The position numbers and the translations under genes are program-made. From assembly GCA_921293015.1 (NCBI GenBank), contig OV121095.1:35809484-35873483 (forward strand): a stretch of DNA of 64,000 bases. The letters run 5' to 3'. The notes beneath the pieces were generated by a model. It saw only the letters and a program-made list of their open reading frames with translations, had not been told where the DNA came from and ran no database searches. The DNA comes from Phorcus lineatus (lineage: Eukaryota; Mollusca; Gastropoda; Trochida; Trochidae). Shown one piece after another: positions 208-55,275 of the stretch. Position 1 is the stretch's first letter. The number at the start of each line of letters is the position of its first letter.

Positions 208-3200
208 GTGGGTGCCTTCAACATCTTTTTAATTCAATTTTGTAACTATGAAAAATTTAATTGAAAATCTGTCTTTTGATGACATGAATATTTACCATAA
301 TGTAATTGTTGATCCTATTCTATGTAAAATTAAGTACAATTCCACACACTGTTGACTACTTCTACCTTGTGCTTAACAGAATATCTATTCTACCTTGACA
401 AATGACAAATTTATCTCTAAGAATGTGTAAGAAAAGCAAGTAATTCACAAGTGATAATCGCTTAATAAGATATTTACTTGTTAACTCAAATGATCAAAAC
501 AACACGGTAACGGTTGAGAAGAATAGAAATGTCATTATTTCCTGTTTTTTATGAAATAGATTAGAACTTGCTAATTGCAAATAAAATATTTTGATTTCAA
601 GTTTAGACCTATTTCTCCATGGTTGTATTTGCTTGGTTTCAGTTTGGTCTACATCATATCTGCAGTTGCCTCCCCTTTTTTTGGATTCCTTATCGACAAG
701 ACGGGGAAAAATATTTTCTGGGTGATCGCTGGAACAGTTGTAACACTCGGGTGTCACGCTACCCTGGCATTCACTTTCCTTAACCCATACGTTGCCATGG
801 TAACTATTTTTCAAATAATCTAAATTACAGATCAATTTATTGTTATGAGCGATATCAAGTTTGGCCTGAAAACATAAAGAAAGAATAGACAGACATTTGT
901 TTCAATATTTTACATGAAAATGAAAAAATGTCATATACTGTAAAATCATAATATTTCGCGGGGGTTTAATTTTCGCGCTTTTCGCGCAAAGTCATAATGC
1001 GCGAATAATAAAACATCGCGAAATATTATGGTTATGGATGTGAAGTAAACCAATAACAGACAAATAATTTGGTTGACACATTTTATTACTCACAGGAATG
1101 TTTGGCTTGTTCATAATGACGAGTCACTAATTAGAGGTCTCACAAGCGTGTACGCCGATATGCACCTTGTTTGTTGTGCAAACACAATCATCACAATAAT
1201 CCGGCCTGGCGGAATCCACTCTTGATCGCCAATATGCGTGTCCTGATGTTTTGATTGCAGTACGCTTGAGCTTCGATTCGGTGCGTATTGCGGTACAGGA
1301 CCTTCGGTTCAAATATATTTTCGGTTCGATATGATATTTCTTTGAACGAGATCTCGAGGATTCACATCATTCAAACACTATTGTTGGGAGTTAAAGATCA
1401 AACAAAATCGTTCCGAATGTTTACTTACGGGAAAGCTTGGCGACAGGTATCGTTACCACTTCAAAACTTGAAGACTTTTAATGACAATAAATAAAATTGT
1501 GATCGTTGACTTTTTGAATAAATATTATTGTTTTCATTGTAAATTACTACTAGTTTCTTTTCTGCACGGTGCATGTAGTTTTTCTCACTAAATTTTTTAT
1601 ATTGCTTAGTCGATATGCGCGAAAATTAATCCCCGCGAATCAGTCATTTTTTATGTTTGCGCGAAAATAACACCCCTCGAAAATAAATGATTTTACAGTA
1701 AGTTAATTTCCAATATGGTAGGCTGACATAAATGTTAAAGGATCTTTATTTATCTAAGTTAAGAGGTATAACTGAAGTGTCTGCTTTATTACAATGGCCT
1801 AGATGCCATTGTACAGATGTATTTTAATGTTTAGACATGGAAAATATAAGAGCAAATCTCTAAAATTTGCGATAGATCTTAATCATATTGATAGGTTGTA
1901 ACCATATGATTTCCTTGAAAATATGTAGGTTGCACCTACAAATTCTCAGGTAACTAACCTGTGTGTTTCCATTTTTCAGTCGATTATGGGCTTGGCTTAT
2001 TCTGTGTTAGCTAGCGCACTCTGGCCGATGGTCTCTCTTGTTATACCACAGCATCAGCTAGGAACAGCTTACGGAATGTGAGTCTTGTCTGAAGCCCAAT
2101 GATTAACCGCAATTATGAGTTTGACACAAAAATCAGTAGATTTCATCCTAGTTAACAAACAATGTAAGTCTATTCTATTTCTTTATTTAAGATAAGGGTG
2201 TTTTCCAGAAATGTACCTTGACTTGTTACTGTAAGTTACTTGTTGTTACCAGTTAGGCTGTAAACACAATCTCTTCTGCAATTTGAATGAAAAATATGTA
2301 TTGTGATACGTATCGTATCGTCACCCTAATATGGTGATATGTATTGTATCCTGAGGGTTTTGTATCGTGATACACCTAATAACTAATGTCGAGTGTCTAG
2401 TGTTGTTCAAGTTACACCAAAAGATTTTATAAGATGATACTTGGGTTTGTTTCATGCTTGGCTTTAAGAATTATGAGTATAAGACATTGCATGGACTGGT
2501 ACTGTACAGAAGCCACAGGTGTCACACTCCAAGTCAGCTTAATTTCAGTCCATTACATATCCAAGATTCTTCCTTGCTTAGTAATTTATTACACCTGTAG
2601 ATGACTAAGATAATTTGGCACAATTGTTGTTTTTGAAGACATTTAAGAATGGTAAATATCTGCACACAGAATGCAAGCAGTACAGAACCTGGGTCTGGCG
2701 GTGATATCACTGGTTGCCGGCATCATCGTGGACAGCAAGGGCTATCTGATCCTCGAGGTCTTCTTCATGGCCTGGCTCTGCTGTGAGTTGCTCTTTGACA
2801 AACATTTCTCGTTTGTTATTGCATTTATTGTTTACAATCAATTGTGTATTATTGTTACAATAATTTAATTCAAATTATGTTTTGCATATGACAGAAGGTG
2901 TGTTTCCTTGATTTAAACTATTTTGTTATTGTGTGGTTTTTGGGTGATCAGATTAAGGGATAACTTTAGCTGACACTAAAGAAATAGTACCATTGAAATT
3001 TCTTGAAATTTCATGAAAGGGGATCGAGGACAGCCTCTTGGAACAACAATGCTGTTATTCTTTAAAGGATCAACATTTTTGTACTTTATGATCTGATATT
3101 TTTGTCCTCATTTATTCCTGAAATCAACACAAACTTTAATTTAGCATGGTATAAAGAAATATTATCTTACTCTATTAACAGTGCCTTGTTATGAAGTCAG

Positions 3201-4141
3201 CTGTATGTTCAACAGGTGCCCTTGCAATATAAAGTTATATTGTTTCCTTGTTGCAGGTGCCCTGATTGCTGCTGTCTTGCTCTACTTGGTTGACGCCGCT
3301 CGAGGTGCGTGTTAAGTATTTAGTCATTCTTGATTAACTATTTATAAGGTTGTATTGGATCAAAGACTTTCTTAGGTGTTAGCCAAAAACTTTCCTGTTC
3401 ATAGTGAAACAGACATCGAAATCTCGCTAGACTTAGGTCAGAAATGCATCAGGCATTTAGTCTAAGTACTGCTCCATTGGAGTTATGTCAAGTGAACTAT
3501 TCCTCCAACCAATCAGCTAGAAGTATCCCATCCTCTTTCAACTTTTTGACTTTTCCTTTAGAATTGCCATACCCCTTAAAATTTGTGGTGATCAAAAAAG
3601 ATTTGGGCCTGAAAACGCATCCTTCGCTATCCCAAAATCCTACTCCCCCTCCGCCCTGTGTTTGTGTCATTGGCATAAATTGATATCTTTTGCAGTCCTT
3701 TGATTCCCCGAGTTATGGAATTAGAAGGTCAACAATATTTAGCTAGCAACCATTTCAAGATTATTTGTTAATAACAATTTGGATGCCTCATATGGCAATA
3801 CAGAATGGTTGAACACTATCTTATTTAGCTTTGAAAGAGTTAACAATATCTCTGTTCATGTCAGATTTGCTGTGTTAACCAATCGGAAGTTGTAAATGAC
3901 TGTACCCCAATATAATAATAAAAGCATTATGTGTTACATTTTAACAGCTTTCATATATGTGAATGTATTCAGTTAAACATAATGATACATGAGCTATTCA
4001 AACACTTTATCTCAATTCAAAGGATCTTGTATTTCCTCTACATGCTGTTTCCATATTTGTTTTCCAGGAGGCAAACTGAACCAATCTGCTAAGAAGAGAC
4101 ACGCAGCTGCAGATGCCCTTAAAGCAGAGGCCGAAGTGTGA
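151..4141 (+). CDS. MFSD1: MFSD1 orthologue, C-terminal part (six exons; 5' end outside window)
   Basis: MFSD1 is a 12-helix major-facilitator protein of the lysosomal membrane, reported to export dipeptides and to need the partner GLMP. The exons seen are 151-207, 643-799, 1980-2077, 2670-2782, 3257-3304 and 4068-4141, all GT-AG and phase-compatible. They join into 181 residues ending in TGA at 4139-4141. Recognition rests on stretches shared with vertebrate MFSD1 as I remember it: a loop reading DKTGKN, then ALWPMV, PxHQLGTAYG, MQxxQNLGLA and a final LLYLV helix followed by GG-LN. The segment should hold roughly the last five membrane helices and a short lysine-rich cytosolic tail. The preceding exon ends with one base left of an NNG codon (Lys in human). 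The missing N-terminal half would lie upstream of base 1. Identity is secure; exact exon ends are inferred from splice consensus and phase. Confidence 0.93.
643..799 (+). CDS. MFSD1: MFSD1 exon b
   Basis: Encodes LVYIISAVASPFFGF, the DKTGKN loop and a following helix ending NPYVAM. The SP-FG--DKTGKN signature is the MFS loop best conserved in MFSD1. The acceptor is ggtttcag at 635-642. The donor is atg|gtaact at 800, phase 0. Frames that read through into either flank are intronic and not used. Confidence 0.92.
936..1700. mobile_element. Non-autonomous element with terminal inverted repeats in MFSD1 intron b
   Basis: The element opens with TACTGTAAAATCAT at 936 and closes with the exact reverse complement ATGATTTTACAGTA at 1687-1700. 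Further in, a second inverted pair is rich in cgcg (955-980 against 1617-1640). There is no transposase frame. The 765-bp interior between the arms includes sequence unrelated to them, which looks like either captured DNA or a nested insertion. The frames at 1127-1312 and 1288-1494 lie wholly within it. Confidence 0.65.
1980..2077 (+). CDS. MFSD1: MFSD1 exon c
   Basis: Encodes SIMGLAYSVLASALWPMV then the PQHQLGTAYG turn, a hallmark of MFSD1 between its tenth and eleventh helices. The acceptor is atttttcag, the donor at|gtgagt. It ends in phase 2, and the first base of exon d completes an Ile codon. Confidence 0.92.
2670..2782 (+). CDS. MFSD1: MFSD1 exon d
   Basis: Encodes MQAVQNLGLAVISLVAGII, a VDSKGY turn and an LEVFFMAWLC helix. 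The acceptor is tgcacacag, the donor ct|gtgagt at 2783. The open frame runs on past the donor to a stop near 2868, but that part has no resemblance to MFSD1. Confidence 0.92.
3257..3304 (+). CDS. MFSD1: MFSD1 exon e (48 nt)
   Basis: This short exon encodes the last membrane helix, ALIAAVLLYLVDAAR. The acceptor is gttgcag at 3250-3256, the donor g|gtgcgt at 3305. The Cys codon at its start is split with exon d and the Gly codon at its end with exon f. Confidence 0.9.
4068..4141 (+). CDS. MFSD1: MFSD1 terminal exon
   Basis: Encodes GGKLNQSAKKRHAAADALK and ends AEAEV-stop. It corresponds to the cytosolic tail that reads GGNLN in human MFSD1. The acceptor is tttttccag ending at 4067. The TGA stop at 4139-4141 sits inside a good donor-like sequence (gt|gtgagt, from 4137), so an alternative, longer C-terminus cannot be excluded. 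Confidence 0.85.
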
Positions 4142-7100
4142 GTAGACTCCTTAGAAGATCTTAATTTTCTTTTTCACTTTCTTTCCCTTGTTAAGAATCT
4201 GTCATCTTTGGTGTTTATATTTGTAAATCTATACTTTACGTATGAAGGAGAAGGTGACGTATTTGGACTCAGTGATTTTTTTGTGAATAAAAAATGTTTA
4301 ATCCAAATATCACAAGGTGTCCAACAACATCCACAAGTTGCATCTCTTTCCATTCTAGTTTTGAGTTGTCATTGGCCAAACCTTTTCAATATTATGCTTC
4401 CTTTTGGAAAGCCGACCACTCAGGAATGTTTTTGAACTGATTATTTTAGCAGGTTAAGCTTCAAAACAGTATGGGTATAAGAGTAAACTTTTCTTTGGTT
4501 GTATCCTCCTTTGGATAAGTCAATAGGCTTTCATATGATTTGAAATTTGACATTGAAGCACCCATAAAATACCTTTCAGTCGTAACCAATTACTTATTTA
4601 AGTACCCATTTCAATTCAGGACAATACTATGGTTTACTGTTTGTAACTCACTGTCACTTGCTGCAAAACATCCCACAATAATGTCAAACTCTTTTTCTAC
4701 TTTCTCTACCTGGTTTCTGAAGTCAGTGAAAATTTTAAAACCACAAATAACCCTAAATCAACTGCTTAAGTTATGTCTTCAAAGGAAAAGATTTTCTTTC
4801 AGTGAGAAGCCCAAAATCAACTGATGAACAGATGATCAGCTCAAGATATAAAAATGATGGAACAACTGGTTCAAAGTTGTTAAGTTGACTTGAAATACTC
4901 ACAGATGACATTCCATACTTAAAAAACAAATGTCTCATTTATATAACTTTTTAAGAGAACCACTTATACGATTTTACTGTAATTCATTAGTACCACCCTT
5001 ACTTTCTTAAGTTGTTTTATTTTGAGTATAATTAACTGATTTCCTAATACTGAAAGTCTCAGGGCTCTATATGATTTGATTACATTGTCACAATTAGTTC
5101 TACAACAGTGTAGCTATGGTTACTTACAAGCAGTTTTTATTAAGGTTTCAAGATCATCAAATACCTTTACCAAAGCAATATTACAATAATAATTGTTTTA
5201 AGACAGGAATGTTTAAGTAATGGAAACAGTTTGAGCAATAGTAAAACTGTGATGACGATGGTGATAATAAGATTGAATTATCTGTTCAAATTAAAATGTA
5301 AACTGTTTATTACCACCCGGTAATGTAATGTTATTCCTGATGTCACAAAAGTTTCATTTTTAACATTTCTGAAAGTTTTATCAATGAAAAAAAGCAATCC
5401 TGATTTTGAGTGTAAGTTTGCTGTAAATATACCTCACATGGTTGGTTTTATATCTTTTATTTCTAAATATATGTAATGAACATTTAATTATACTGTGGTA
5501 CATAAAAAGACAAATTGGTTGATTTATTTTTAAGAAGGATGTTCATATTTGGTGGGACAATAATTTTTTTTATTCCATGTCATCAAGATTTCAATGGATT
5601 CTTATGTTCATAACAAAATGTTTTTATTTTTAACAATGCACTTAGATCTAGAGACACCTTGCATGTTTTACTAATGAAATAAATCATTTAGAAGAAACTT
5701 AGAATATGATTATTAAAATATAAATATATAATTTTTACATGAAAAATTCCTTTCAATTATTACCTCATTCTATTAACGTGATCATTTAAATTGCATTTGC
5801 CACAAATAAGTCAATTTATGATTTTTTTACGTTCAATGCATGGTTTTAGTTAGCTTACTGCGTCCTTTTAAATATGTGACAGTCAGATGTTTAGGAATAC
5901 AGTATTATCTGAAACAGCCTTTCTCCCTGACACTTGGTATGTATTGGAATGGATTTTGCAAAGTGCCAAATGTAAATATTTACGCAATAATCTTTGTAGA
6001 CATAAATACACAAGTAGAGTAGGTTGGTGTGTGGAAATTTTTTTTATTCAATTATTGTCAATATTCCTATCGCTCTGAGAAATCATTTTAATTATATGAT
6101 GTAATTAAGGTACCATGACATATTGTTTCAGGAATGAATTACCTTGAACAAAATACTTAACAAGTACCTGTCATTTGATTTATAGTATGCACATTTTGCC
6201 TTCAGATTTATCATCATGCATAGTTCCTGTGGTAAATTCTTGATTTTAAATGGCTTTTTAGTACTGCAAGTATCCATGAGGAGGCCCTCATTTTTTAACA
6301 ATGCATGGTCGTCATTTCTCTCACTGAATGAAGTTTATTATTTCATGAGTTGTGCTATTTAAGATCTCTGAAGTTTGACACTTACCTTAAATGTTTAAAA
6401 CCATATATGTATATATTTGTTAACTTAATATTGAGGAGAAGAATGTAAATTTTGCTACTGCCGTTCTGGATCGTTTGAGTGGCATTCTTAAAGTTGACAG
6501 TATCAGGAAGATAAGGTGTTTTATTAGTTATCAATTTTATTGCAATGTTTTAGTTTAGATTCTTTTACAGTTTGCAATAATGAATTGTCCTCTATTATCT
6601 TGTGCAATCAATATTCTCAATTTAAAATTACCTCATTTTTTAGTTTTGGTCTTTTGTCCCTGGGCATTCATTAAGAGATGATGGGACTGATTTGAAGCAA
6701 TTTTAAAATTTTCCTCTTCTGGGATATGATCATATTCATCATTACCATAGCTCAAGCAAAGGATTCAACAAATCTTTTTGCAAAGAGGAAGTTTTGTGTA
6801 CCCAAATATCTCACTGCCTGAAAATCTAGATTGAGAAAAATTCCTAAAATTTAGCAAATCTTTTTTACATCTTTGCATTTGATTGTATCTTGATTTGAAA
6901 TAATTGTCCTTCACCAGAAATAGTCATGTTTAATACTGTGTATATAATTTAAGCCTTGTATATAGTCAATATATTTTATCACAATATTTTTTAAATAAAA
7001 AATGATTAAGTTTATTTGTGTCTTTTTGTTTGTGCAGTTGTCTAGATATAGAGTATAGAAATTGTCCGACAGACGCATTTCCTTTTTTAGGACGAGTTAA

Positions 7101-13783: not shown

Positions 13784-16700
13784 CTGAAACAACAGAGTAA
13801 TCAATATAATTAGCAACAGGACATTTTTAGCAACTTGAGTAACAAATATTTAATTATTAGAAATATATGAGTAATTATTACGATCAGTAACAGAAAATTA
13901 TTTTTAGTTACTATGTAACAAGATTTTCATTTCTTATTTGAACTTGACTGAACTGTCATAGCAATCAATATTAGCTACCTAGAAGAAGAAATTTTAGTAA
14001 TTAGTGACTCATTTCTAAAATATAGCTCTTAAAAAAAGTAAATGGTAAAAGAGAGAAAAAACAACTTTTAATTTAATAGTACATTTTAAAAAAAGGCTCT
14101 TCTAAATATAACTGTAAAAGCTTATTTATTAATAAACTAAAACATAATTTTCAAAATACCAACATGCTAGAATTTACTGCCACAAACATCACTGCTACCT
14201 TATAATGTTACTGATTCTCTGGGAACTCATCAAGTTAACAATACAATTAAGATTTCTATATTAAAAAAAGTATGTTTTGCTTGATTTTAACAATTTTCAT
14301 TCCTTGAATTTATTTTATCATCTAGTTGTTTTTAAAATCATTTAGAAGTGGCTTAAACAAGAAAATCACGATTTTGTGGATAACAACTTCATTATTGTGG
14401 TGTATAAAGTTTAAGCTAGAGCAATGAGCACATTGTCATTTTCACAATAAAAAAGTTGTTATCCAGAAAATCTTTCTTTTCTCATTTGTCTGTGTGTAAA
14501 AATTCCTTTTGTGTGTATTCATATCACTGGTTTTTGAAAGGTGTGAAAAACAAAGAAGGAAACAACAAAAAACTTACACATGTCTTAAACTCTAAATTCA
14601 AATATCTGAATTCATCATTTTGAATAATTTGCAAAGTGCAAAGTGAATAAAGCTCTCGAAATAGCAAAAATAACTATGAAATTAAGATCTTTCTTTAGGA
14701 TAAATTGCACATCTCAAACAGAATATGTATATATATATGATGAAATCAATCTAAAATGATAATTAATATACTTTGTTATATGTGCATAATAAGCAGAACG
14801 AATAATAAACATCAATAACAAAATAGATAATATATTCAAATCAATAACTAAAGTTTCACATAACATGGTGCACAGTTTTATCTTAAATATTGTTAAAAGA
14901 AATAAGAAGAGGCTACTCTGTTTAATCATATGAACGAGGATGGAAGCCTAGTTGACAGAGCCCTCGCTCATCACGTGGGAGGCCAAGGTTCACATTGAGA
15001 CCGTGTCATACAAAAAACATTTAAAGATTGGAGACGCTGCTTCCTTGCTTGATTAGACAGAGATTAAACTTAACCAATACTATTGGTGTTCATGTCCTTA
15101 ACATAGTATGCCACGTACATGAACAGAATATCCTATATTCTAAGAATATTGCCAGTGTTTGTTTTTGTCCCTAGAAGGTTGCCTTCAAAATACACCTGAC
15201 AGCAGGTCACCGTGAACATTTTTTAAAACGCAGGTAACGTGTAAATTTTTACAAATAATCATAGCCTCATTATGAAATCACATAAATGAATGGAATAGCC
15301 TCTCTTCATAACTAATTGCGGGTCACCATGTTACATGAGATGCGCATGCAGAAAACTGAAAAGCCTAGATACCGTGGAGTTCTACCTGCTCAGGTCCTCA
15401 ATATCCACCAACATGGAATCCTGTTCCATGTGCAGGTCGTCCCTCTCCATCAGCATCTGCACCAGTTCCTCGTTCAGACCTGGACATATGTTCATACCTT
15501 TATCAAGATCAAAGTTACAGTCTACATCAACATCTACATTCACACCATCTACATAAACACTAAAAACAGGATCAACCTCAGAAACTAGATCAACAATGAC
15601 AGTCACAGGAACAACATCACCACCAGGAACAGGATTAACATCAGGAACAGGTTCAACCTCACATCAGGAACATGATCAACATCATCACAAACACAAGATC
15701 AACATTAACATGCACACAGCCACAGGATCAATAATAGCACAGAAAAAGGGTCAACATCAATACAGAAACAGTATTAACCTCAACACATAACAGCAACATC
15801 AATTTCATCAAGATCACCATCAACAACTTGATACAGGATCAACATCAACAAAGACACAGGATCAACATCAATACAGAAACAGTATCAAAATCTATATCAA
15901 CACCAGACAAAGGATCAACATCAACACGAGAAACAGGATCAACATCAACACAAGAAACAGGATCAACATCAACACGAGAAACAGGATCAACATCAACACA
16001 AGAAACAGGATCAACATCAACACAAGAAACAGGATCAACATCAACACAAGAAACAGGATCAACATCAACACGAGAAACAGGATCAACATCAACACGAGAA
16101 ACAGTATCAAAACCATCAACAATAACACGAGAAACAGTATCAACACCAGACACAGGATCAACATTACCATCCATACAGACAAAGGATCAACATCAACACA
16201 GACACAGGATCAACTGATTGTATACTCACTCTCTATCTGAGTGTGAAGATCGTTGACGAGAACCTGTAGCTGGGCCAGGTTCATATCTTGTAGCACCGTG
16301 CTGTTGATTTTGCGTCTTCGTCCATCTCCAAGACTCGGGATTCCAACCTTTCACAAACACATTCCAATTGAAATTCATTCGAAGATTCCAGAATCATTAT
16401 TTTTCTTAAAACTTTTTGACTTCACCTGGTACCAGAATATCATATCAGATAAAATGTCATTATCTTCGTTTCTCCTCATGCTTTTTCCATTTTCATTTTT
16501 TTTTTAATGATCATCGGCAAAATACATATTTCTTGTAGTAAACAAAGATTTAGAGCAGTGCAGTAGCTTTGACACACATCTACAAATTGGTCCTTAGTTT
16601 ACATACCATGTCAGCTATAGGAGATTTTTTCTTCAACTGTTTTTCCACCTCAAGTTGCATGTGAGCCATTGTACAAGCCTGGAACAAAAATAAATAGAAC

Positions 16701-19700
16701 ATCAATAGGGAAACAGTCTACACATTGAAACAACAAAGGAAATATAAATTGAATTTATTGGTAACACTTTTTGCTACAAGACTCAAGTATGCCTAGTAAT
16801 TTAGGTTTAACCTACTTATGTTAACATGGTATTTAAGCTACGATACTTCCCGGCCACCTTAGGTTTTGTGGTAGTCCTATAAAAGATATATTTCACATTG
16901 CCTGTAGATTTCTTAATCACTGTCCAATTTAATTTGAAAAATAGTACACCTGGAGTAATTTCAATATTTCATTAACATTGCTGATGTTATGGCTCTTCTG
17001 CTATAATGAATCTAAATGACAGAGGGAGTAACTATCAAATGAGAAGATTCTAGTGAACTATTTGATGACACATCTCCTCACCTGAGCAAAAACTAGTTAA
17101 CTATTTGATGACACATCTCCTCACCTGAGCAAAAGCTAGTGAACTATTTGATGACATATCTCCTCACCTGAGCAAAAACTAGTGAATTATTTGATGACAA
17201 ATCTCCTCACCTGAGCAAAAACTAGTGAACTATTTGATGACATATCTCCTCACCTGAGCAAAAGCTAGTGAACTATTTGATGACACATCTCCTCAACTAA
17301 GCAAAAACTAGTGAACTATTTGATGACAAATCTCCTCACCTGAGCAAAAGCTAGTGAACTATTTGATGACACATCTCCTCACCTGAGCAAAAGCTAGTGA
17401 ACTATTTGATGACACATCTCCTCAACTAAGCAAAAGCTAGTGAACTATTTGATGACATATCTCCTCACCTGAGCAAAAACTAGTGAACTATTTGATGACA
17501 TATCTCCTCACCTGAGCAAAAACTAGTGAACTATTTGATGACATATCTCCTCAACTAAGCAAAAGCTAGTGAACTATTTGATGACACATCTCCTCACCTG
17601 AGCAAAAACTAGTGAACTATTTGATGACACATCTCCTCAACTAAGCAAAAGCTAGTGAACTATTTGATGACACATCTCCTCAACTAAGCAAAAACTAGTG
17701 AACTATTTGATGACAAATCTCCTCACCTGAGCAAAAGCTAGTGAACTATTTGATGACACATCTCCTCACCTGAGCAAAAGCTAGTGAACTATTTGATGAC
17801 ACATCTCCTCAACTAAGCAAAAGCTAGTGAACTATTTGATGACATATCTCCTCACCTGAGCAAAAACTAGTGAACTATTTGATGACACATCTCCTCACCT
17901 GAGCAAAAACTAGTGAACTATTTGATGACATATCTCCTCACCTGAGCAAAAGCTAGTGAACTATTTGATGACATATCTCCTCACCTGAGCAAAAACTAGT
18001 GAACTATTTGATGACATATCTCCTCACCTGAGCAAAAACTAGTGAACTATTTTATGACATATCTCCTCACCTGAGCAAAAACTAGTGAACTATTTGATGA
18101 CATATCTCCTCAACTAAGCAAAAGCTAGTGAACTATTTGATGACACATCTCCTCACCTGAGCAAAAACTAGTGAACTATTTGATGACACATCTCCTCACC
18201 TGAGCAAAAACTAGTGAACTATTTGATGACATATCTCCTCACCTGAGCAAAAGCTAGTGAACTATTTGATGACATATCTCCTCACCTGAGCAAAAACTAG
18301 TGAACTATTTGATGACACATCTCCTCACCTGAGCAAAAGCTAGTGAACTATTTGATAACACATCTCCTCACCTGAGCAAAAACTAGTTAACTATTTGATG
18401 ACAAATCTCCTCACCTGAGCAAAAGCTAGTGAACTATTTGATGACACATCTCCTCACCTGAGCAAAAACTAGTTAACTATTTGATGACAAATCTCCTCAA
18501 CTAAGCAAAAGCTTGTTAACTATTTGATGACACATCTCCTCAACTAAGCAAAAACTAGTTAACTATTTGATGACACATCTCCTCACCTGAGCAAAAGCTA
18601 GTGAACTATTTCATTATTTTACCCCTCAACTGGGTACGGTTTACTTAATTAATTGATTACACAAAACCCCTCACCATAGGAAAGGGTAGTTAACTTTTTG
18701 ATTATTTGACTCCTCACCTGAGCGAGAGCTAGTTTCGCTTCCTCTTGTAGCCTGGCCTGTCTCTTGAGAAAATCCTCTCCCCCCTCCCCCTTCTCTCCTC
18801 CCCCCTCGTCCTTTATGTGTATGGAGGGGACAGACCTGCGGTTCTCATCTGATCTACGACTAGGCTTCGGCTGCAAGACAAACAAATTTCATTTAAAACA
18901 GTGTATGGATTTGAAACTCAACTCTTTGGTGCATATAGGCAAGATTTATAGTTTTCATTTAGACTAAGGCTATGCTTTTCATTGGCTTCAAGCAGGAACA
19001 TTACTTATGTACTGTTATGTTTAAAAAGTCATTAAACTTGGCTCCCTCCTCCAGCTATGACTTGTTCATATTGGACAACTAAGTTAATTCTTTCTAGTCA
19101 AGTGGTAGAGAATTTCCTTTGTGAAATGAATTGTTTCTTGATAAAGGATTCTAATTCATTACATAAAGTAATTTTTCATATCTGACACATCAACAATCTA
19201 ATTCAACACTCTAAGGTAATGGAGCTCACAGGAATTCTTTATTGAACCCTACAATAAACACTCCACCTACAGAAGGGACATTGACTTTTATGACATACAC
19301 ATACAAGGTATCATCACAGCCAGGAATTTTTGCATATGAAAGCTCAGACATTGTGAAATACTGCCTGAAGAGATCTGCTTGCACGAGTCCAGTGAATAGA
19401 GAAAACATATTGAAGCCCAAGACATCTTCTCAAGTTACTCCTCCATACATAGTCCACGATTATATCCATATTCATGAACAATTCAAAAGTGTTAATTATA
19501 TAAGATAACATCCAACATGGATGAGATATTCAGCGCTTCTTTACTCCAAGATAATCTCCATATTTGAAGGAGAGTTTGAACTATAAGAATTGGTCTTAAG
19601 GCTGAAAATAGTTCACATTAAATGTCAATTTCCAGGTATATAGCCTTGAATAACATCAATATTCAATACCGATGTATCTTATGGCTTGGAATAACAGCTA

Positions 19701-22700
19701 GACATATCCAATAACATTTTAAAAGTAGTGCTGGAATAGCGGCCTGACAGCAAGTCAATTGCTGGTAAATTTCAGACAAGGCTTGTTGGAGAGGAGGTCA
19801 CCATGGCTGGCAAACTGGTGATTTTAGATATTCTAAGAGTCTACACATTTGAGGGCGTGTCAAAATTTTAGTTGTGCTTGTGTCGAGATTTCAAACCAAA
19901 AGTACAGCTTACCAGTATGGACAAAAGATTGTTTTCAAATTTGCAATGTGTCTTGGAATTACATCCACGTTCAATGACTATTTGGATATAACTTCCAGCC
20001 TGGGATAACAGTGATATTCAAAGACCATTTCAATGTATCTTTCAGAGTGGAATAACAGCAATATTCAATGACCATTTCAATGTATCTTTCAGAGTGGAAT
20101 AACAGCAATATTCAATGACTATCTCAATGTATCTTTCAGAGTGGAATAACATCGATATTCAATGACAACTTAATGTTTTACCCAAGGGTATCACCTACAG
20201 GGAAGCATAGACTCACATCAATAAACTTCTCTTCTATCAATATACAGAAGTTCCTCTAAACTATTTCCGTTCTACTATAGATCCTGAACTGTCCCTGAAT
20301 CGAGAGATTCGTCCCTGCTTTAGGGCTTGTTTGTCTTCATTCACTTTCACTGATCTTCAGTAACCTCCACATATACTCATCGCATAGACAAAAAGATGAC
20401 ACGCCAAAGCAAATTCAACCAAGTAAATGATAATAAGCTTTCATAACAAATTCAAGCAAGAAAATGATAATATGCTAACACAGCAAATTCAACCAAGAAA
20501 ATGATAATATGCTAACACAGCTATAATTCAAGCAAGAAAATGATAATATGCTAACAAAGCAAATTCAACCAAGAAAACAATAATATGCTAACACAGCAAA
20601 TGCAACCAAGAAAACGATAATATGCTAACACAGCAAATTCAAGCAAGAAAATGATATGCTTACACAGCAAATTCAAGCAAGAAAATGATAATATGCTAAC
20701 TTAACACAGCAAATTCAACCAAGAAAATGATAATATGCTAACACAGCTATAATTCAAGCAAGAAAATGATAATATGCTAACAAAGCAAATTCAACCAAGA
20801 AAACAATAATATGCTAACACAGCAAATGCAACCAAGAAAACGATAATATGCTAACACAGCAAATTCAAGCAAGAAAATGATATGCTTACACAGCAAATTC
20901 AAGCAAGAAAATGATAATATGCTAACTTAACACAGCAAATTCAACCAAGAAAATGATAGTATGCTAACAGAGCAAATTCAAGCAAGAAAATGATAATATG
21001 CTAACAGAGCAAATTCAACCAAGGAAATGATAATATGATATATGATAAAAGTTTATTGCATGATAAAGACTTATGAGTTCATATGTTTCTTGAGTTCTGT
21101 TAGATAAAAGGGGTTCAGCACTCCTGGTTATACACTACGGTGAAAGATTTTCTTTAACATCTTTTTTTCGAGGACAATTTTGTACTGAGTTATAAAGGTA
21201 TAAGTAGCTTCCTGTACACAAAGAAATTAATACAAACATTACAGAAGGCATTAGAATTGTAACAAAACCATATTTACCCTAAAATACTTCTTCAAAATGA
21301 TATGACTACTGTATTTCTTGACCCTCTTGTCCTGAGAGGACTTAAGGATGAGGATCATGTGAGAAATCATTTCAAAGAAGTCGCTAGAGGGAATTGTCAC
21401 TTTTCATTTACACTTATCAATCCTCTATAAGCTCTCCAGTGGTTTATTTCAACAAGAAGCAATATTACAATTAACAGATCAAGTCTCCAGGGAAATCATT
21501 TCGATAGTTTTGAAAGCAATGATATTTGTCACTTTTAGATCCTTCATGCAATTGGAGTGATCTACATATACATGACAAGCATGTATACATGTTTGAAAAC
21601 ACTTTCAGAAGAAATTGTTTTGACAGTTTGGAAACCCAGTGATTTATTTTTTCAAAAGCAATCAAAATTTCAATTGTGAGAAATATCACAACTTCCATAA
21701 AAGCATGAAGGAAAAACCCTTCAGAAAGGAAAAAGTGGTTTTGAAGGCTCTGAAAGCAATCATGTTTGCCGATTCAGCAGAATCTTCGATAATCTGACAT
21801 GCAACCTAAGCAAAGTGATATTGACTTCTAAATCAGCCTCAAATTTGCATTTATTAAGTTTATTGATTCTGAGCTATTATCTTGTCCACAGATTGTCTCA
21901 TTTTCAAGGACTGAGTGATCGTATTTTAAATGTTCACAACCTAAACCACTAGTAACAAGACTATGATCTATTGGCTGAACCTTCTGACATTAAGTCTCAC
22001 ATAAACATCCATTATCCATTATTCTTAATTTTTGGCTAGTTACTGTTAATTTATCCTTCCTAATTACTTAGAAAGCTTTGGAAATGTTTTAAAAGCAAAG
22101 GGAATACCTTTCTAATCTTTTTTTAAGATAGATAAAACGTCAGAATCAAGTCTTGATTATAAGAAAATAAAAATCAAATCTAAAAAAACCTATCAGTGAT
22201 TGTAACATTGACTCTGATCTAGTTACAGATTTACATAATTAAGTATTTTAAGATGCACTAATAAATGCTGATGCTGCAATTTTCAATTCAGAGACATTTT
22301 AACCTTAGTTATAGCGAATCAATTTCAAAAGGATTGGCTCCATACTTCTGTAAATTTCTTTTCATTTAATAAAATCTTAAACCTTTATCGAACATTAAAA
22401 CAATAAAAAGAAAACAGCTAATGCTGACTAAGGTGCTTATTCGGCTCTAAGCTGTCTCCTTCAGCTGTTATGACTTTCCACTGGTGCCATTAATCTGCTA
22501 TTATGGTTTCACTTAAATTCAGAATGCATTCCTCGATCATAGAACCAATTAGATCAATGTACTGCTATTTGTCTTGGGGCATATTGAAATATGTCTCCGC
22601 TGAGGAATTAATATGATCATAATGTGGATGTGTATTTGTTTATATTTCTTATATATGAAGAAAGAAAAATTTCATATGGGGAACATCAAAATGTTTGAGA

Positions 22701-28700: not shown

Positions 28701-31700
28701 GATCTAGTTACAGATTTACATCATTAAGTATTATTAAGATGCACTAATAAATGCTGATGCTGCAATTTTCAATTCAGAGACAATATTTATTTATTTATCA
28801 TTATTTAGGCAATAAGGCACTTCATACAAATTAGGTGTACATTTATTTCAATTCAAATCCAATTAAAGCACCTTGCAACAAGACCATTTAAAATATCCCT
28901 AACGTCACTAATCTAAGCAACAACAAATTAGTATTCTCACTTATGATGGGCATTTTCAATTAGCAGGGACCAAATATGAAAGATAACTCTCATCTGTGTT
29001 ATTAAACTATTGTTATATTTAATAACGCTCTAAAATATCAAAATGATAAGTGGTATGTTGCAGATATAATACTGAAATAAAAGACTAAAGGAACAAACAT
29101 GAGAACTCACAACAATAACTGTTCACATAGTCCCTACAAGATACAATAGATACGTCTCTCTGAATCATTTAAAAAAACAAAAACCATCTCTACTCACCTC
29201 TTGTATATTCCTCACTGGTGGTAAGCTGTGCCTCTTCTTCTCCACACTTATCTCCCTTGAATCTTGCTGCTCTCCTAACGTCTCATTCATAAAACATATC
29301 TGCAAGTTCATCCCACTTTGCAGCCTTGTCTGTAAGTTTGGTCTTTTGAAAGTCCTTTCATTGTAATAGTACTCCTCGTCTGTACCCATTGCAAGCTTGC
29401 GGCGAATTTCCTCACGGTCATTGAGACGTGTCTGGAAGAGAGAATAAAATATTTCAAAATGTAAAACCACAACTTTGATTACATTGTTGATATACAATAA
29501 AAACTTTGGCATGAGATTAACATATTCTGCGTTTTCTCTTGTAGAATCCCTTATTCTCTGCAAGAAACTGAAAATGAAACCAATCAACATAAATACATAA
29601 ACCATATAGCATTTCTCGATTCATCTAAAGTTGAACATATGTAAATGTTCATCAACACACTTTAAAAATGTTTTACTATCTAAGCATCTATCAAGCAACC
29701 AGCAAATGGTCTGAAATATCACAAAGACGTGTATCACTCTAATGATTCTAAATCATGATATATATATATATATGTATATGAAAAAAGTTTACAATCTTGA
29801 AATTGTTTTCCAGCTCCCAGGTATTGAATATGAAAAAATATGAAGTTAGAAGTAAATACAATCCATTTTAATGGCTAGCGCTTTCAGCTCAACGAGCCTC
29901 TTCAGTATGTATACATACATATAACCCTTATAGGTAAATTATATTTCCTCAAACAGGAAGAAAAAATATGTATTGGAATAAGATTAATTTTTGAGAATTA
30001 AATGTTTATTCACATCTTCATGATATTTAAAAGAAATTCTATCAACTAATTTCAATTAAAAAAAATATATATAATATTATATACACTCAGCTAATTATCA
30101 ACTAATTATTCATACTTAAAAGAAATATTCACACGCTGTGATGTACAGACTCATCTAATGACAGCTCAAAAAGATGTTAAGTTCATGGAAACAAGTAAAA
30201 AAATCTGCCTTAAACTCAAGGGAACAACTAAAAAAGCTCCCTTAAACTCTTTTTGCTCTTTAATCTGTCTCAAAGCCAATAAACAGTGCAGGCTGCCACC
30301 TGAAAACCTTAAGTGTCTAAGATGTCTGTCATTCTGACACTGAGGCCAAATAACGTATCGTCAGCACTTCTTCCAACCTCTCCCCTTACCCATCATGCAC
30401 CATAATTTGAAACCACACTGACTTGTACCTAAAACCATTAAGTCCCTTCAAATCCATCATATTGTATTGATAAAAGGATGCTACTTATAATCTTGTTTCA
30501 TTAATTCACATCTCAAAACATGAAAAGCTTAAACGTCTTAATTGTAAATGTCTGCGATCAAATTACATCTAAGTATGTCTACCGCATCATTCAGAACCCA
30601 TCACTTTGTATCAATTTGACAGATAAAAACCAAAAGTTTTGAAATGTCCATCAAATGCTGAATTACTTTCATCAAGCCTGTGTGCCTACCACAAATTATT
30701 ACCAATTTTGCTTCATCTGGCATCACAAGTTTACACCTTTAATTCTGGCGACAAATTCTTTGGAGGATTGACACATAATATAGTCAAGTGCTTGAAATGT
30801 CTACTGAAGTAACTATCAATAAATTGCTTGCCAGACACCCGTGAATAAGGTTGTTGGAAAGAAACTTGTGAAGTGAAAATGCTGATGTAGCAAATTTAGA
30901 ACCTTGCCTAAAGGAAATTACAGTTTTATTGGCAACTAGACGACCCCTCAAGGTGAGAAAATGGCGGTTTCTACTTTGTTATTCCTTCATCACTACAGAT
31001 TCCTACTCTTCAGATATGTTGTTGCATCGATCATGTTTGGCAGTGTGATAAAAAATCAATTGGACATATTTCTTGCATCAGATTTAAATGCCAGGAGACT
31101 TGTACAAATACTCATTGGTATTTGAAGAGATGGCAATAAATTTTATTCGCTAATATCATACATCTGATCCCTGCAATACTGACTCAGCTTGACAGGGCAT
31201 TTTTTTTTTAAATAAACAGATTTTGAGATTCTAGTTAATAAAAGAATAAATTCTGAAAAACTGTGACTTTTTTAAAAATCATGACTTAAATAGTCAATTG
31301 ATGAAAAAATTGGAACTGCAGGCAAAAAGGATGACACACTTTAATACCAGGTTTGAAATTATGTCTACAAACCAATAACCAGTTTTACATTTCTTTACAA
31401 TTCTAATCAGTAATTGAGTACGGATTTAGTGTTAATTTAATGTTGTGCAAATGGTTTCTGCTGAAATAAATGTTGTACTTCTATTTTGTATGAGATTAAA
31501 TTAATTCATACAGATATCATTTTCCTGGATGCTACGTTTATTTCTGTAACAGTCTTTCAGGAGCCTAAAATAATTTTAAAAATAAGAAAACGAGAACACC
31601 TTCACTGATTTCAGCATTCAGATTCTTCAATGCTATTAAATAATAGTCCAACACTATTGCATATTCAGGAAATTTCATATAATTTTGTAGGATTTGTTTC

Positions 31701-54650: not shown

Positions 54651-55275
54651 ACCTTTAAGAAATCCTATGTTACGTTTCCATGGAAACGGGTAAAAATAAA
54701 AATGCAAAGAAGTTGAAAACCCCAAAAGGCACATCTCGGCATAATGCCCGTTGCACATACCAAGTTTCGTCGAGCTAGGTCTCACCGTTTTGGAGTTGTG
54801 CTCCGGAAACATTAACGGGTAAAAATAAAAATGCAAAGAAGTTGAAAACCCCAAAAGGCACATCTCTGCATGATGCCCGTTGCACATACCAAGTTTCGTC
54901 GAGCTAGGTCTCACAGTTTTGGAGTTGTGGTCCGGAAACAAAATCCTATGTTACGTTTCCATGGAAACGGGTAAAAATAAAAATGCAAAGAAGTTGAAAA
55001 CCCCAAAAGGCACTTCTCCGCATGATGCCCGTTGCACATATCAAGTTTCGTCGAGATAGGTCTCACCATTTTGGAGTTGTGCTCCGGAAACAAAATCCTA
55101 TGTTACGTTTCCATGGAAACAGGTAAAAATAAAAATGCAAAGAAGTTGAAAACCCCAAAAGGCACATCTCCGCATGATGCCCGTTGCACATACCAAGTTT
55201 CGTCGAGATAGGTCTCACCGTTTTGGAGTTGTGCTCCGGAAACATTATCGGGACGGACGGACGAACGGACGGAAT
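54651..55275. repeat. 152-bp tandem repeat, four copies, ending in a (GGAC)n tract
   Basis: gggtaaaaataaaaatgcaa recurs at 54688, 54817, 54969 and 55121. The last three are 152 bp apart, and the first junction is shortened to 129 bp. Each full unit contains the palindrome GTTTCCATGGAAAC and ends ctccggaaac. A gacggacggacgaacggacg tract follows at 55251-55271. The minus-strand frames of 60-99 codons all translate the same unit. Confidence 0.9.

Follow-up and report, generated by a model that had tools for sequence, protein, structure and literature searches.

The 64,000-nucleotide stretch of Phorcus lineatus DNA analysed here, called the window below (GCA_921293015.1, contig OV121095.1, forward-strand positions 35,809,484 to 35,873,483), carries on its minus strand a gene of the SCHIP1 family. 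One intron of this gene holds a tandem array of 43-bp units, which resemble the 3′ end of the preceding exon together with its splice donor and stand in register with the exon boundary. The features that make up this arrangement are the following, with window coordinates and a slash marking the splice junction:

18718..18870, minus strand: SCHIP1-family exon of 153 nt (PKPSRR...KLALAQ), the 3′ end of which appears copied into the array; recognized from its open frame and acceptor, by Pfam and by masking
18710..18720, minus strand: true donor, CAG/GTGAGGAG, with intron base 1 at 18717
16679..18717, minus strand: intron of 2,039 nt holding the 43-bp array, which occupies 1,562 nt of it
16607..16678, minus strand: exon downstream of the array intron, 72 nt, recognized by the Pfam match across the junction
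18695..18737, minus strand: boundary unit, in register with the array, made of 20 exon nt and 23 intron nt
18607..18694, minus strand: two decayed units that separate the boundary unit from the array, recognized by wraparound alignment and donor-like sites, with limits set by us
17059..18606, minus strand: 36 regular 43-bp units, 27 with CAG/GTGAG and 9 with TAG/TTGAG
18649..18651, minus strand: in-frame stop TAA encountered upon use of a downstream array donor, from reading the sequence

Joined and translated, the two exons (18718-18870 and 16607-16678) match the Pfam family SCHIP-1_C with an E value of 1.2e-16, residues 24-75 of the product corresponding to family positions 104-155, with equal lengths on both sides and no gap across the junction. 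A PDB search with the SCHIP1 fragment returned one insignificant match only.

Tandem Repeats Finder delimits the array at 17050-18611 (period 43, 36.3 copies, 94% matches), within which the 36 units keep an exact 43-bp register, their donors running in minus-strand orientation from 18586 down to 17081. Mean pairwise identity among units is 0.945, and 9 of the 43 positions vary. GCTCAG/GTGAGGAG, as found at the exon boundary, is present in 27 of the 36 units, the number that the first-pass annotation had given for CAG/GTGAG, and these 27 donors are identical to the true donor over an 8-mer; the remaining nine units carry GCTTAG/TTGAGGAG, in which the two changes (TAG/TTGAG) always occur together. 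An 11-mer, CAGGTGAGGAG, is identical at the true donor (18717) and at the array donor at 18586, and the step between these two donors, 131 bp or 3.05 units, fits the near-perfect register with spacings of 43, 45 and 43 that had been claimed for the run into the exon. The boundary unit itself agrees with the array consensus at 29 of 43 positions and with the best unit at 31 of 43. Between it and the regular array, donor-like sites persist in the decayed units, ATG/GTGAGGGG at 18674 and CAG/TTGAGGGG at 18629, and the 97-bp spacer (18613-18709) scores 39 against the unit by wraparound alignment, while 400 shuffles gave a mean of 12.6 and a maximum of 28.

Around the junction, boundary and array have 21 of 23 bases in common, as claimed in the first-pass annotation, the two mismatches being scored against the set of array variants, and this junction pattern occurs at 37 places in the window, namely the 36 units and the boundary. 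On the exon side alone, the best units agree with the exon at 14 of its last 16 bases; with CAG left out, 11 of 13 match, which is equalled at 5 of 124,376 other window positions. The outcome named beforehand as refuting, an exon-like part shorter than about 12 bases and explained by chance, was not found. Wider spans are equalled more often (-17 to -4 at 38 of 124,374 and -20 to -4 at 543 of 124,368 window positions), which indicates that the likeness stops near base 16. The SCHIP1 exon matches at 11 of 14 bases, a level that no other AGGT site in the window attains (420 sites compared). The exon-end likeness is therefore genuine, yet short, and the in-register spacer strengthens the case for it.

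The direction of copying can be approached through the coding sequence. The SCHIP-1_C match scores 61.7 bits and loses 12.4 bits when LALAQ, the residues encoded by the repeated part of the exon, is masked, a loss comparable to those caused by masking four other five-residue blocks (7.6, 10.3, 12.2 and 15.2 bits), which marks the exon end as ordinary conserved coding sequence. The likeliest direction of copying is therefore from the exon into the intron, which is also the simpler reading. The reverse, in which the array came first and an unrelated satellite supplied the exon end with its donor, or in which the likeness is due to chance, is improbable to our minds. The exon-like part has only 16 bases, and when AKLALAQ is recoded at random with synonymous codons, 1.8% of 200,000 trials equal the observed match over the last 17 bases, a weaker control; yet the family profile scores LALAQ as conserved, few window positions match as well, the spacer resembles the unit, and longer shared exon parts, up to about 45 bases, occur elsewhere in the genome. 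Nor does the unit behave as a satellite found at many places: a 571-bp query made up of array and boundary, searched against the 958-Mb genome, matched at least one locus, that of SCHIP1, which is the only one among the matches listed, and copies at many loci, as expected of a dispersed, introner-like repeat, were not seen among them. No instance of the array pattern was found in viral contigs. The conserved exon end, the single locus found and a spacer made of decayed units all bear out the earlier proposal that duplication began at the exon boundary.

Runs of up to five identical units recur within the array at a lag of nine units (387 bp), which points to copying in blocks. As a whole, the array is a mosaic of unit variants. 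Tandem arrays are generally error-prone in assemblies, and a real array whose length and copy order were products of assembly would be one explanation of its present form; we give it very little weight, since the mosaic of variants is not what one block cleanly repeated would look like.

The SCHIP1 array belongs to a known kind, and it is its recurrence within one genome that is new. The first-pass annotation knew of no described case, but two human variable number tandem repeats (VNTRs) have units that carry a real donor. In CBS, the 31-bp VNTR is designated c.1444_1467+7(16_21), with 16-21 copies (PMC2630376), a name by which each unit has 24 bases of exon and 7 of intron. Like the SCHIP1 unit, the CBS unit repeats a coding exon end plus donor; it differs in its length (31 against 43 bp) and in varying among people, whereas the SCHIP1 array is known from one assembly, and the two decayed units that precede the regular array are a SCHIP1 feature that the CBS repeat, as described, does not share. 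The CBS VNTR is reportedly linked to enzyme activity and homocysteine (Lievers et al. 2001, judged by title). In ABCA7, a 25-bp VNTR in intron 18, linked to Alzheimer risk, has a unit that includes the exon 18 donor, and use of the donor of the next unit adds one unit and a premature stop, in a minor isoform that is independent of array length; a figure of 2 ± 1% is read here, with uncertainty, as the share of this unit-retaining isoform (PMC5954066). Both this array and that of SCHIP1 start at an exon's donor, the first two bases of the ABCA7 unit being the donor GT; as described, however, the ABCA7 unit starts at GT without exon bases, whereas the SCHIP1 unit includes them, and ABCA7 alleles of about 12 to 427 units have been measured together with splicing data. 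Two features of these donor-spanning VNTRs are found at SCHIP1 too: the unit holds the donor sequence of the real exon, and the array is continuous with the junction despite the two decayed units. In the Rogers model of intron gain by tandem duplication, whose source also cites multiple 24-bp duplicates in fission yeasts, a segment bearing AGGT is copied and supplies both AG and GT sites, and 27 of the 36 SCHIP1 units hold AGGT as well; there, however, a new intron arises inside former coding sequence, whereas the SCHIP1 copies sit inside an intron that was already present and leave the exon unaltered. The earthworm metallothionein gene has an intronic minisatellite, which the available part of its source does not describe as spanning a junction (PMC12783039). 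No genome-wide account of junction arrays was found in the literature, judged by titles.

Use of a later donor would change the message. The stop that the first-pass annotation had placed at 18649 is there, as TAA at 18651-18649, and for any of the 27 downstream donors it would lie 62 nt or more upstream of the next junction. By the 50-55-nt rule, a stop farther upstream of a junction than that exposes an mRNA to decay, and mRNA from a later donor would therefore face it. The +1G is lost in 9 of the 36 units, and this loss is among the commonest array variants, so that there is no sign of selection for keeping the donors. That loss also argues against an array that serves to regulate dose, in which downstream donors would lead to the stop and decay, or to reduced inclusion of the next exon, and copy number would tune SCHIP1 output. 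The 27 donors with the 8-mer of the true donor and the position of the stop would suit such a role, as would the finding that ABCA7 array length goes with exon skipping and lower expression, but unit retention in ABCA7 is constant across array lengths (PMC5954066), and we regard regulation of this kind as unlikely, if less so than the other alternatives. A recursive-splicing ladder, in which the exon would be spliced to any of the 27 unit AGs, rebuild a donor each time and so remove the intron stepwise without trace, can be pictured from the motifs: the unit types tested carry TTCAC or TTAAC, which resemble a branch site, as well as a T-rich tract and CAG/GTGAGG (at motif level, unscored), and positions -20 to -4 hold 8-9 T in the unit against 4 in the exon copy. 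Its pyrimidine tract is short, however, the motifs may be drift and 9 of the 36 units would rebuild no donor, which makes this ladder highly improbable.

Other matches to the SCHIP1 family lie on the same strand near 29255-29425, 16228-16401 and 15376-15480, the latter two containing in-frame stops, as when a match overruns its exon. The family was not found elsewhere in the genome by a family search in which five candidates were scored, and Rfam at gathering scores gave no match within the window. Further minisatellites in the window lie at 20408-21037 (37-bp units), 15605-16214 (24/48 bp) and 54685-55244 (129/152 bp).

Donor arrays are a recurrent feature of this genome. A whole-genome pattern search for triples of CAGGTRAG at spacings of 30-60 bases yielded 759 matches, and the reversed motif yielded 212, both counts being inflated by long arrays. 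From pattern searches of this kind, 36 loci outside the window were assembled (all 16 found with CAGGTAAGV, 16 among the CAGGTGAG matches listed and 4 more from CAGGTRAG), a set that takes in 2 of the 14 CAGGTAAGTD loci, and they were judged by eye from acceptor, open frame and repeat, with no blind control. They fall into these groups:

Clear junction arrays (14): L039, L042, L045, L047, L049, L050, L065, L069, L073, L077, L079, L080, L087, L089
Probable junction arrays (2): L074, L082
Doubtful junction array (1): L040
Array start not reached (2): L078, L081/L084
No junction start seen (17): L041, L043, L044, L046, L048, L064, L066, L067, L068, L070, L071, L072, L075, L076/L083, L085, L086, L088

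In the 14 clear loci the array starts at the end of a coding exon, and the exon half of the unit consists of the last exon bases; base-by-base alignment of six junctions besides SCHIP1 puts the shared exon part at about 16 to about 45 bases. Database matches of the exon exist for five of them, by Pfam to Aa_trans (L045, 4.4e-7), VERL_C (L065, 6.6e-12), alpha-mannosidase (L087, 8.7e-8) and SNF (L089, 3.1e-11) and by PDB to OTUD3 (L073, 8.3e-9), while the other nine were recognized from acceptor, open frame and repeat. Pfam searches with single exons gave matches in 3 of 10 and 3 of 8, and those with three-frame stretches of L045, L047 and L050 and with the L039 exon gave none. The assignment of L047 to an SLC6 gene found no support and was dropped, and the L050 exons, considered as CUB-like, had no Pfam match either.

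Several of these loci have features of their own. At L045 (G000:C2:51164000-51172000), in a gene that we take to be TMEM104-like, two separate donor-derived arrays (about 3044-3234 and 5003-5193) lie in one intron, and the array farther from the exon has the unit closer to the exon's coding sequence. At L065 (G000:C7:18175400-18176200), a long array of 42-bp donor units lies downstream of the VERL_C exon, by name of the sperm-lysin receptor family of abalone and kin; this match would by itself make a mollusc, perhaps a vetigastropod, the probable source of the genome. A 42-bp donor array also adjoins the thrombospondin-type-1-like exon of the probable locus L082 (G000:C11:7460820-7461070; Pfam TSP_1, 2.4e-5), whose frame is disturbed and appears shifted, through either an old copy or a sequence error.

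Acceptors can be treated in the same manner. Triples of the acceptor motif TTTYCAGG number 386 against 87 for the reversed motif, and many of the matches listed fall in two dispersed tandem families, which carry acceptor-like TTTTCAGGGGGGAAG in 58-bp units and TTTCCAGGTCCTCTT in 51-bp units at many loci (for example, G000:C1:39430033 and G000:C7:59194143). By hand count of the matches listed, 15 loci lie outside these families, and 13 of them were inspected: in two (L052 and L053) the array spans an acceptor and ends at the exon start, a third (L057) possibly does so, and no clear exon start was seen in the other 10 acceptor-motif loci. The L053 exon is UROD-like (Pfam 9.6e-12, PDB 2.9e-9), and that of L052 is an open frame without a Pfam match. 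At L053 (G000:C5:18068500-18073000, around 1782-1960), a 53-bp array lies across the UROD-like acceptor as a mirror image of SCHIP1. Our prediction that donors alone seed arrays was not upheld; since L052 and L053 span acceptors, both intron ends can do so. A human counterpart is CBS c.844_845ins68, a duplicated intron/exon junction that is removed by splicing with the protein kept (PMC2630376), which is closer to these acceptor arrays than to SCHIP1.

From the structure at SCHIP1 we infer an order of events, a choice of donor and neutrality. A segment across the exon's donor, of about 16-20 exon nt and about 23 intron nt, would have been tandemly duplicated into the intron; the copies adjoining the exon would then have decayed, and later copies would have been amplified to 36 units by unequal exchange. 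Duplication across the donor would damage neither the exon nor its own donor, and both would still come first in the transcript; for that reason the array would be tolerated. The spliceosome would mostly choose this first donor, which stands in its exon context, and occasional use of a later one would yield an mRNA with a stop. It is probable that the array arose and is spliced in this way and is a neutral by-product, one of a recurrent class seeded at junctions. Several points weigh against this account: the shared exon half is short and 1.8% of synonymous codings match it as well, as given above; arrays across acceptors exist (L052 and L053), to which the logic of the first site winning does not apply; and longer ABCA7 arrays are accompanied by more exon 19 skipping and lower expression (PMC5954066), so that such an array need not be neutral.

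The recurrence of junction arrays raises the question of whether junctions are preferred seeds. Over C1 to C11:7.46M, hand-counted loci comprise 31 donor-motif arrays against 6 reversed-motif ones (P 0.0009), where single motifs number 48,171 and 34,514 (1.40 to 1), the donor count pooling several patterns and the control being one pattern. Junction arrays make up 14 of the 36 loci, against a guessed 28% of real donors among motif sites (P 0.11; P 0.03 for 16 of 36 with the probable loci). The 28% reflects no more than the surplus of the motif over its reversed form, and such baselines are crude. Minisatellites may also favour donor-like words for other reasons. With 14 of 36 not clearly above 28%, proof that junction arrays are over-represented was not reached, and most of what is seen would follow from random seeding in a minisatellite-rich genome, together with tolerance of those arrays that leave the exon intact. 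That junctions are preferred birthplaces of minisatellites here, and that dozens of genes may carry arrays starting at an exon end or start, is a tentative suggestion.

Arrays in which dozens of identical donors compete offer a natural test of the way in which the spliceosome picks one of many equal sites, and if they recur across genes, one genome and long-read RNA could relate donor choice to copy number, spacing and decay. They mark places where annotation may misplace exon ends, and the link of both human cases, ABCA7 and CBS, to a disease or trait makes the wider class worth cataloguing. Junction arrays show how exon-derived DNA can enter introns and lengthen them, and preferred seeding at junctions, if true, would be a recurrent route of intron growth that leaves the mRNA unchanged.
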